Shown here: in pieces, positions 60,968 through 64,000 of the stretch | How positions within the stretch are numbered: position 1 is the stretch's first letter | Layout of the letters: every line of letters starts with the position of its first letter | NCBI RefSeq assembly: GCF_030164425.1 | Contig: NZ_JASNJD010000013.1 | Coordinates: 1 to 64,000, forward strand | Source: Pseudodonghicola flavimaris | Lineage (GTDB): Bacteria; Pseudomonadota; Alphaproteobacteria; Rhodobacterales; Rhodobacteraceae | Length of the DNA: 64,000 bases | Reading direction: 5' to 3' | Translations under genes and position numbers: made by a program | The notes under the pieces: generated by a model | The model's input: only the letters and a program-made list of their open reading frames with translations | What the model was told of the DNA's origin: nothing | Database searches by the model: none

Positions 60968-62302
60968 ATGCAGGTCACCGAAACGCTGAACGAAGGGCTC
61001 AAGCGCGCTTATGAACTGATGGTCACGGCGCAGGAGCTGGACGATAAGGTGAACGAGAAGCTGCTCGAGGCCCAGCCGGAAATCGAGATGAAGGGCTTCC
61101 GCAAGGGCAAGGTGCCGATGGCGCTGCTGAAGAAGCAGTTCGGCCAGCGTCTGCTCGGCGAAGCCATGCAGGAAACCATCGACGCGGCGATGAACTCGCA
61201 TTTCGAAGAGAGCGGCGATCGTCCGGCCATGCAGCCCGAGGTCAAGATGACCAACGAGGACTGGAAAGAAGGCGACGACGTCAATGTCGAGATGAGCTAT
61301 GAGCGTCTGCCCGACATCCCCGAAGTCGATCTGGCCTCGATCAGCCTGGAGCGCATGGTCGTCAAGGCGGACGACGCCTCCGTCGACGAAGCCCTGACGA
61401 GCCTGGCCGAAAACGCCAAGGACTTCAAAGCCCGCGAAGAAGGCGCCGCCGCCGAGGATGGCGATCAGGTGGTGTTCGACTTCGTCGGCAAGGTCGATGG
61501 CGAAGCCTTCGACGGCGGGTCCGCCGAAGATTACCCGCTGGTTCTGGGGTCCGGTCAGTTCATCCCTGGCTTCGAAGAGCAGCTGGTGGGCGCGAAGGCC
61601 GGTGAAGAAAAAGACGTCACCGTCACCTTCCCCGAAGAGTATCAGGCCGAACATCTGGCCGGCAAGGAAGCTGTCTTCACCTGCACCGTCAAAGAGGTGA
61701 AACAACCGGTCGCTGCCGAACTGGACGATGAGCTGGCGAAGAAATTCGGCTCGGAAGACCTGGAATCCCTGAAAGGTCAGATCCGGGAGCGTCTGGAAGC
61801 CGAATATGCCGGCGCCGCCCGTGCGGTTCTGAAGCGCGGCCTGCTGGACAAGCTGGACGAGCTGGTGAGCTTCGACCTGCCGCCGAGCCTGGTGGACGCC
61901 GAAGCCAAGCAGATCGCGCATCAGCTGTGGCATGACGAGCACCCCGAGGTGCACGACCACAACCACGAAGGCATCGAGCCCACCGAAGAGCACACCAAGC
62001 TGGCAGAGCGCCGCGTGCGTCTGGGCCTGCTGCTGGCCGAACTGGGCCAGAAGGCCGAGGTCGAGGTCACCGACGCCGAGATGACTCAGGCGATCATGAA
62101 CCAGGCCCGTCAGTATCCGGGTCAGGAGCGCCAGTTCTTCGAATTCGTGCAGCAGAACGCCCAGATGCAGCAGCAGCTGCGCGCGCCGATCTTCGAAGAC
62201 AAAGTCATCGACTATGTCTGCGAACTCGCCAAGGTCGAGGAAAAGGAAGTCAGCAAGGACGAGCTGGAAAAGGCCGTCGAAGCGCTGGACGACGACGCGT
62301 AA
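60968..62302 (+). CDS. tig: Trigger factor
   Basis: A 444-residue ribosome-bound chaperone and peptidyl-prolyl isomerase. The N-terminal ribosome-binding domain carries the signature GFRKGKVP (residues 43-50). The FKBP-type domain spans about 160-245 ([32 protein letters not shown]), and the C-terminal helical arms follow, with an acidic end (EALDDDA). The start [11 protein letters not shown] is preceded by GGGGAATACGG. It has its own terminator and is followed by the convergent luxI gene; the usual tig-clpPX neighbourhood is not seen here. Confidence 0.95.
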
Positions 62303-62329: not shown

Positions 62330-62356
62330 GGGCCGCCCTCTGGGGCGGCCCTTTTC
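62330..62356 (+). terminator. Intrinsic terminator of tig
   Basis: Perfect 9-base stem GGGCCGCCC (62330-62338) and GGGCGGCCC (62343-62351), loop TCTG, followed by TTTTC. Confidence 0.85.
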
Positions 62357-62394
62357 ATGTCCGGAGGCGGGCAGGGCGCAGCGATGACCCTGAC

Positions 62395-62428
62395 GAAAAA
62401 GGGCCGCTCAAGCGAGCGGCCCTTTTTC
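62395..62428. terminator. Bidirectional terminator between tig and luxI
   Basis: Perfect 15-base stem GAAAAAGGGCCGCTC (62395-62409) and GAGCGGCCCTTTTTC (62414-62428), loop AAGC. It has a T run on both strands, so it can stop luxI transcription on the minus strand and read-through from tig on the plus strand. Confidence 0.9.
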
Positions 62429-62447: not shown

Positions 62448-63401
62448 TCAGTCGAAAGAGGTCATCGCGCGCTGCATCCCGTCCGGTTTTCCCGAAGAGG
62501 CGGTGGCGGGAAGATCGATCGTGGTCTCCTCCTCTTCCTCCGCCTCGCCAGCGGCCGCTTCGAAACGGTCGCGCAGGGCTTCCATCAACGCCATGGCGGC
62601 GTCGACTTCTTTCGGCGTGGTGGCGTTCATCACCTGCTCATAGCAATATTGCTTGAGCGCTTCGGCGTATTTCTGCTTGTCGGCGGTGATGTCCTCGCCG
62701 TCCATGTCGGGGAACAGCTCGGCCATGCTTTTGCTCGCCATCGCCGGGGTGCGGTTCTTGTAGAACAGCTTCAGCGCGTCCTCGTCGGAGAGGAAGACAT
62801 CGTGGCGGATGCCGGCGAACTCTCGGATCCCCTCGATCCGCTCGTCGGAGCAATCCATCAGCGCAGCCATGGCGGTGACCACACCCATCGGTTTCGGCGA
62901 GCCGATGTAATCGTAGGGTGCATTGCGCGACCGCTTCATCACCCGGTTCATCACCGGATCGATCACCGCGACGGCATCCAGAACGCCGGCCTCTTGTGCG
63001 TATTCGAAGGCACCTACCATCACCTCGCTCGTCACATAAGAGATCGAATTGCGTTTTTTCGTGCCGGTCAGCTTCCGGGTGTCGACACAGAACCGGGTGG
63101 CTTCCCAGATCCGGGAGCTGCGCAGCGGCGGTTCGCCGTCGAGAAGTTCATAGAACACGTCCGCCAGCATGTGCGGGCCGGTGGTCTGCAGCAGACGCAT
63201 GCAGCCGACAACATCCCCGTCCTCATCCAGGCAGACGACATGCGCAGGATCGAGCGAGTCGAACTCGTCGATCTCCTTGCCGTCCTTGACTTTGACGTCC
63301 CAACCCAGTCGCCCTTCGAACACTCTCGCTCTGAGGCGGTACATTTCGTCCAGCAACTCGCCGAACTTATGCCTGTTGAGACCATCGATTACGATAATCA
63401 T
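62448..63401 (-). CDS. luxI: Acyl-homoserine-lactone synthase with long C-terminal extension
   Basis: A 317-residue LuxI-family enzyme that makes N-acyl-homoserine lactone from S-adenosylmethionine and an acyl carrier protein thioester. The family's invariant residues are all present: Arg24, Phe28, Trp34, Asp45, Asp48, Arg69, Phe83, Glu100 and Arg103. The conserved catalytic domain ends near residue 215; another 100 or so residues follow, including a helical part (AALKQYCYEQVMNATTPKE is close to this) and an acidic run (GEAEEEEETT). Most LuxI proteins stop at 190-230 residues. A good AGGGGAAA ribosome site precedes the ATG. It lies downstream of luxR on the same strand. Confidence 0.92.
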   Translation of the reverse strand: MIIVIDGLNRHKFGELLDEMYRLRARVFEGRLGWDVKVKDGKEIDEFDSLDPAHVVCLDEDGDVVGCMRLLQTTGPHMLADVFYELLDGEPPLRSSRIWEATRFCVDTRKLTGTKKRNSISYVTSEVMVGAFEYAQEAGVLDAVAVIDPVMNRVMKRSRNAPYDYIGSPKPMGVVTAMAALMDCSDERIEGIREFAGIRHDVFLSDEDALKLFYKNRTPAMASKSMAELFPDMDGEDITADKQKYAEALKQYCYEQVMNATTPKEVDAAMALMEALRDRFEAAAGEAEEEEETTIDLPATASSGKPDGMQRAMTSFD

Positions 63402-63627: not shown

Positions 63628-64000
63628 TCAGGCGGGGTAAATCAGGCCCAGCCCGATGGCGCGACCGACCGCTTGTGCCGTGGTTAACGCGCTGAGTTTT
63701 TCACGCCCCGATCGCAGGTGAACTTCAACCGTACGATGAGAGATCGACAGGATATCGCCGATGTCCTGCTGGCTTTTCCCGGCGGCGGCCCATTGCAGGA
63801 TCTGCAGTTCCCGGGTCGAAAGCGCTGGCCGCTGCAGGGCGGTGTGCAGCACACCCGAGCGCATCACGTTGTCATGCATGTGGACGGCGGCGAACTGCAG
63901 CTCGCCGATGACCGCGCGTTTCAGCTTGTGCCAGTCGTCCTCGCCGCAGTCGCGGGTGACGCTGAGCAGACCGCATTCGCCATAGGGGCCACGCACCGGC
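63628..64000 (-). CDS. luxR: LuxR-family quorum-sensing regulator, N-terminus beyond the window
   Basis: The last 124 or so codons of a gene that continues past the right edge. The visible part starts within the autoinducer-binding domain (RGPYGECGLLSVTRD, typical of its final strand) and holds the GerE-type DNA-binding domain: LSTRELQILQWAAAGKSQQD followed by ISHRTVEVHLRSGREKL and a short end (GLIYPA). An open frame runs to the window edge, so the apparent start codon near 63996 is only an internal GTG. It is upstream of luxI on the same strand, so the pair forms a standard quorum-sensing unit. Confidence 0.9.
   Translation of the reverse strand, partial: PVRGPYGECGLLSVTRDCGEDDWHKLKRAVIGELQFAAVHMHDNVMRSGVLHTALQRPALSTRELQILQWAAAGKSQQDIGDILSISHRTVEVHLRSGREKLSALTTAQAVGRAIGLGLIYPA

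Follow-up and report, generated by a model that had tools for sequence, protein, structure and literature searches.

A LuxI-type AHL synthase of Pseudodonghicola flavimaris has a conserved, predicted helical hairpin that looks like a fused partner module

LuxI enzymes are commonly viewed as synthases with a single domain that stand on their own. Near the end of the window, by which we mean the whole stretch of 64,000 nucleotides of Pseudodonghicola flavimaris DNA that was analysed, there is a luxI-type gene whose product of 317 aa runs on for 113 residues beyond the synthase core (after residue 204). An earlier note on this DNA had pointed to a C-terminal extension of about 100 residues at 62448-62760, which corresponds approximately to residues 214-317, and the reading frame bears this out. 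What is this extension, and what may it do for the synthase? The features of the locus are as follows.

60968..62302, plus strand: trigger factor gene tig, convergent with luxI; it marks the published 'topology A' luxRI locus
62448..63401, minus strand: luxI-type AHL synthase with a C-terminal module (ORF, 317 aa)
62790..63401, minus strand: synthase core, residues 1-204, LasI-like fold (Pfam, AlphaFold2 model, Foldseek)
62670..62789, minus strand: variable-length linker, residues 205-244, including the start of helix 238-258 (alignment; pLDDT 55-61 at 221-240)
62562..62669, minus strand: conserved helical hairpin, residues 245-280, L..Y[CF].EQ...A....E..A...L...L (alignment, profile, AlphaFold2)
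62451..62561, minus strand: non-conserved tail, residues 281-317, with the end of helix 2 and then low-confidence sequence (alignment, AlphaFold2)
62526..62540, minus strand: acidic run EEEEE, residues 288-292, the only run of this kind in 74 distinct fused proteins
63628..64000, minus strand: luxR partner, 3' part, the rest lying past the window end (GerE and Autoind_bind)

Pfam Autoind_synth (PF00765) was detected on residues 17-190 of the window LuxI with E=1.6e-63 and 214 bits, against a cut-off of 24. The invariant residues of LuxI were taken from the relevant part of PMC3907830, whose numbering is higher by one for five of the eight. All eight (R24, F28, W34, D45, D48, R69, E100 and R103) were found, in agreement with the earlier claim that every catalytic residue is present, and the core is complete. 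In a Foldseek search with the whole model, the best match was LasI (1ro5, E=2.8e-15), and AHL synthases and acetyltransferases predominated among the 50 matches listed; the aligned ranges are not given, so this search is silent on the hairpin. The LasI, MesI, RpaI, BjaI and TofI structures share the core fold (Foldseek) and the core sequence (phmmer) with the window LuxI, whereas their chains are about 200-221 aa and no counterpart of the module is apparent in them. No second LuxI was found in the genome of the window (next match E=0.25), and the closest named relative is from Pseudodonghicola xiamenensis DSM 18339 (71% in the best segment). Judged from its sequence, the window protein is a LuxI-type AHL synthase. 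AHL synthesis in E. coli has been reported for SsaI, which is of the same type (PMC3907830).

luxR is located directly upstream of luxI on the same strand, and tig is located downstream. We take the gene at 60968..62302 to be the trigger factor gene. The same order, luxR-luxI and then trigger factor, characterizes the topology A luxRI loci with I-alpha and R-alpha (Cude and Buchan, PMC3824088), while an extra synthase domain is unmentioned in section 5 of that paper. SsaI (Ruegeria sp. KLH11, 284 aa) and SilI1 (R. pomeroyi DSS-3, 286 aa) have been described as having 'an extra long C-terminus' (PMC3907830). They are likened to the window LuxI by this description and not by their sequences: their size class and genus are those of the 24 hairpin-bearing Ruegeria proteins. 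The part of PMC3907830 on which we draw describes length alone, with no domain, motif or split gene, and the window LuxI differs in being longer and in having a private acidic tail. From the locus layout and the core identity, and with the core set apart from those of other Rhodobacteraceae LuxI, the window LuxI is assigned to the SsaI/SilI1-type (I-alpha, topology A) subfamily, SsaI and SilI1 being known here by description. TraI-At2 of Agrobacterium 15955 is also a LuxI-type protein with a C-terminal extension (PMC7856919, in the part cited). In contrast to that of the window, it is of 25 aa, and the 288 other genomes of a class-wide scan, in which the TraI-At2 plasmid is not contained, were hairpin-free at E<=0.001.

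Two further observations concern the surroundings of luxI. Between the convergent tig and luxI, two inverted repeats with runs of T or A are present at 62330-62427 and resemble intrinsic terminators by eye. Just past the window, ahead of luxR, there is a small HTH gene, Xre-like by eye (contig 64358-64759; L044:8359-8760, minus strand), and the order HTH-luxR-luxI is also annotated on a Ponticoccus alexandrii plasmid.

The structure of the window LuxI was predicted by AlphaFold2 from a 43-sequence alignment (mean pLDDT 85, pTM 0.72). The extension was modelled with two helices, 238-258 and 263-292, which upholds the helical pair proposed earlier. The block means of pLDDT were 82-94 for residues 241-280, 70 for 281-290 and 50 for 291-300, and the values fell below 50 at residues 294-305 and 308-317. 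The EEEEE run is thereby placed at the low-confidence end.

To see the extension among relatives, as the earlier note had proposed, we used 394 Rhodobacteraceae genomes from 393 genera. LuxI of the window type was detected in 42 of them at E<=3.3e-77, well apart from the match that follows at 3.3e-37. Thirty of the 42 proteins are long (267-317 aa), and all of these possess the same 36-residue hairpin on a variable linker. A further eleven, the short ones, have 210-223 aa, and the last protein (L034) has 237 aa and no hairpin. The long form was also found in 50 of 62 GTDB loci; eight of the 62 GTDB proteins are identical to proteins of the 394-genome set. In the hairpin, Y252, Q256, A260 and L272 are at least 90% conserved across the 30 proteins, and the flanking linker and tail differ between the aligned proteins in both length and sequence. 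The extension is therefore conserved in Rhodobacteraceae LuxI of the window's type, in 30 of 42 genomes.

The pN/pS ratios in 24 Ruegeria genes were 0.091 for the core, 0.403 for the linker, 0.205 for the hairpin and 0.283 for the tail; since pS is near saturation in this comparison, the tail excepted, the ranking alone is meaningful, and in it the hairpin lies between the core and the linker.

The acidity of the extension is a different matter. Among the 74 distinct fused proteins, the part after residue 204 has 62-113 aa and a median net charge of -0.05 per residue. No other extension in this set is as long as that of the window (113 aa), which has a net charge of -13 and the sole run of five acidic residues. 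The acidic run noted earlier is thus present, at residues 288-292, but it is found in one of the 74 proteins and is not conserved. We reject it as a functional part, since it is unique to the window's protein, and the earlier argument from acidity has little support. What stands of that interpretation is the complete core and a pair of helices as a possible binding site for a partner.

Profile A2, made from 30 rows of fused hairpins only, was run on 16 chosen genomes, 12 of which have no fused hairpin. In four of the 12, the best match was a distinct ORF just after luxI (G030, 6.5e-10; G267, 1.4e-8; G168, 3.0e-6; G143, 2.8e-3). No match was listed beside luxI in the remaining eight, and in G216 an unrelated partial match (2.1e-3) was found within a frame of 1183 aa, luxI being located on a different contig. 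The G143 match is no better than that of G216, and its assignment rests on its position and on the tests with the A5 profile (see below) and with the downstream DNA. In the latter test, a control, the DNA downstream of 22 distinct hairpin-less luxI genes, L034 included, was scanned with the profile. On the coding strand, five of them reached 17-38 bits. The highest of the other real scores was 3.6, and 628 shuffled scores went up to 8.1; L094, for which the DNA after luxI spans 37 nt, was left without a score.

The five distinct separate ORFs encode 67 aa (L012, identical to L086), 68 aa (L022), 75 aa (L028), 78 aa (L087, Alkalilacustris brevis) and about 84 aa (L043). An ATGA stop/start overlap with luxI was observed in L012, L022, L028 and L087, and the L043 ORF starts one base past the luxI stop. 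In the stand-alone AlphaFold2 model of the L087 protein, three helices were predicted (28-39, 44-56 and 60-77), with block-mean pLDDT of 82-93 from residue 31. Helices 44-56 and 60-77 correspond to the fused hairpin; the alignment for this model contained fused extensions, so it is not independent of them. When the separate ORF of L022 was searched against plasmids, one match was obtained, with E=0.7. By homology, the separate hairpin proteins are predicted ORFs related by descent to the fused hairpin.

Taken over the 42 clade genomes, the hairpin is fused in 30 and a separate ORF in four; a small ORF of another kind (type B, see below) is present in two, neither was seen in the scanned DNA of five, and the 237-aa LuxI without hairpin makes up the last one. 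The hairpin is hence dispensable in some lineages, namely the five in which it is neither fused nor adjacent, the two with another small ORF and L034.

Is the hairpin found anywhere else? Profile A5 was made from 26 fused and five separate hairpins. In the 394 family genomes it matched 34 at E<=1.3e-7, as 30 fused proteins and four separate ORFs, most of which are already in the profile. Each of these matches is in or directly beside a window-type luxI, and the sequence comparison thus marks the extension as more than chance. In another 44 of the 394 genomes, weak, partial matches alone were obtained (2.4e-4 to 0.05). Among 289 genomes across the class, a few of them from the same family, none but the window's own matched at E<=0.001, and no second hairpin copy was found in the window's genome (next match E=0.3). 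Across the 394 family and 289 class-wide genomes, strong hairpin matches as defined by these profiles occur solely in or beside window-type luxI. The plasmid search returned one record with the long form, from Ponticoccus alexandrii.

Comparison with known families gave no name for the hairpin. No Pfam or NCBIfam family was above the cut-off for the hairpin or the separate proteins; below it, the matches were AAA_3 for the extension (E=0.16) and DnaB_bind for the L022 hairpin ORF (E=0.014, the best among the separate proteins). In PHROGs, there was no match at E<=0.1 for the hairpin or the small ORFs. The PDB profile search gave no credible match to the hairpin, its hits being short or weak (CagY over 12 positions, E=0.0027; Lem22, E=0.066). 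In Foldseek, the stand-alone model had no match at E<=0.001, and the best rows were Nipah and Hendra phosphoprotein domains with E of 0.2-1. TraM and NepR, small regulators and possible candidates for the hairpin, were set aside, as no family above the cut-off was obtained in Pfam or NCBIfam.

Other sequences came to light in these searches. A contig of a viral collection (L181:3001-3858) encodes a long-form LuxI of the clade, flanked by carB-like and histidine-kinase-like genes as judged by eye. We do not regard it as viral; with such genes beside luxRI, it is probably bacterial chromosomal DNA filed as viral. A second family of small proteins, type B (H.WI...L.D...Y....GL...), follows a short luxI in L016, L033, L090, L091, L097 and L099, and in four of these six its start abuts or overlaps the luxI stop. 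Weaker members are present at L171:2006-2216 and L169:2019-2235 (plus strand) and, in reverse orientation, in L175 and L174; they are located about 0.7-0.8 kb upstream of another, SsbI-like luxI, and the size of the gap would fit luxR. Type B had no Pfam match above the cut-off. It was rejected as a homologue of the hairpin, since hhalign gave no similarity.

To ask whether the long form arose by fusion or the separate form by fission, trees were made from 80 clade cores and 12 outgroup LuxI. The clade was split from the 12 outgroup rows with SH-aLRT of 96 in the quick tree and 91/93 in the careful tree. In the quick tree, 57 fused proteins and L034 formed one branch (SH-aLRT 97), with the short forms at the base. 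The fused 305-aa LuxI of Roseivivax isoporae (L095:4001-4918) has a core that falls among the separate-gene rows in this tree. It is possibly a second, independent fusion; one fused clade is also compatible with the data. In the careful tree there were three changes of the fused label, and 0% of 200 bootstrap trees gave one. Neither constraint was rejected, with p-AU of 0.623 when all fused rows and L034 were held together and 0.664 when all short rows were held together, and both constrained trees outscored the free search. Because all 12 outgroup LuxI have 200-215 aa, we prefer the fusion of a pre-existing partner gene; fission would also be compatible with the trees. tig was found downstream in 60 of 104 loci, all 60 with fused forms and none with the 24 shorter ones, many of the 104 loci reaching only about 1.4 kb downstream of luxI.

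Genes that overlap in one species and form a single fused gene in another usually have products that work together. Since the hairpin is also found as a separate ORF next to luxI, the reading of the extension changes from an acidic tail to a fused helical partner module with a split-gene counterpart, the function of which we infer. The long LuxI looks like a Rosetta-stone fusion of a synthase and a small helical partner, and from the overlap in some species and the fusion in others the synthase and the small protein would be expected to work together, presumably with 1:1 stoichiometry. The separate form would be co-translated with luxI, and the fused form would be covalently tethered. The hairpin would then be a protein-binding module in cis, which may tie the synthase to a partner or modulate its output, and would not be part of catalysis. 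No catalytic family is recognised in it, its tether is variable and it is absent in some lineages, all of which agrees better with a module for binding or regulation than with an element of the active site. As a whole, we consider it reasonably probable that the extension consists of a linker and a conserved hairpin homologous to a separate small protein, and that it acts as a cis-acting protein-binding module on SsaI/SilI1-type LuxI.

Three other explanations were weighed against this one. The first, that the extension is read-through sequence which drifts and has no function, would suit the part past the hairpin, in which neither the tail nor the acidic run is conserved, but it is very improbable for the hairpin itself: the four residues conserved to at least 90% in the 30 proteins, a pN/pS half that of the linker, and the existence of separate ORFs that overlap luxI all argue against it. 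Somewhat less remote, though still unlikely, is a structural or stability element that packs on the core, or aids dimerisation or solubility, with no separate partner. It agrees with the strong matches being always tied to window-type luxI and with the occurrence of short linkers (the whole extension having 62 aa at minimum). However, the linker varies widely in length and sequence and is partly of low confidence in the model, and thus a tether fits better than a packed subdomain; moreover, the cores of the short, hairpin-less forms are close relatives of the window core, with 59-74% identity in the first set.

The remaining explanation is that the hairpin gives SsaI a second output apart from its AHL, by binding a regulator such as one of the CckA-ChpT-CtrA relay or another LuxI or LuxR, so that the protein itself is needed in addition to its signal. 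It is a special case of the binding module preferred above, and the odds of the two overlap; by itself we hold it to be doubtful, about on a par with the structural element. In Ruegeria sp. KLH11, plasmid-borne ssaI restored chromosomal ctrA, chpT and cckA fusions, and added 3-oxo-C16:1-HSL did not (PMC3692519). On plasmid fusions, according to the same part of that paper, PctrA-lacZ stood at 2.9 and rose to 7.1 with the AHL, against 182.6 in the wild type; the corresponding values of PcckA-lacZ were 1.6, 8 and 48. Loss of ssaI abolished detectable AHLs, those of the other two synthases included, with transcription not significantly changed (PMC3907830). The KLH11 SsaI has 284 aa, and the hairpin was present in 24 of 24 Ruegeria proteins examined, KLH11 SsaI not being among them. 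Against this explanation, the authors of the KLH11 work give simpler reasons in the sections cited, namely poor uptake of long-chain AHL, an indirect link or missing feedback, and added AHL partly restored motility besides weakly raising the plasmid fusions. As a pointer to the role of the hairpin, the KLH11 results are suggestive only.

That some roseobacter LuxI are extra long (PMC3907830) and that luxRI is followed by the trigger factor gene (PMC3824088) was known, as the cited parts of these papers state; the same parts are silent on the conserved hairpin and on a separate gene for it. In the open-licence PMC literature, which leaves out most subscription papers, we found no description of the hairpin domain or its split form. 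A passing remark on an 'extra long' LuxI thereby becomes a concrete hypothesis. With a conserved second module and a split-gene counterpart in view, the synthases of a large group of marine bacteria are likely to have a protein partner of their own. The hypothesis also offers a way to test the KLH11 result, in which ssaI in trans, and not its AHL, restores the genes of the CtrA relay. A bolder proposal, which we regard as unlikely, is that the hairpin represents a previously undescribed family of small, helical proteins in quorum sensing, whose members would serve the AHL synthase as a dedicated protein partner. Their gene would overlap luxI in some Rhodobacteraceae and be joined to it in most of the clade, and the synthase itself would then be a regulator as well as the maker of the signal. 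If this were true, such a family of small partners would explain why in KLH11 the ssaI gene, and not its AHL, restores downstream control.
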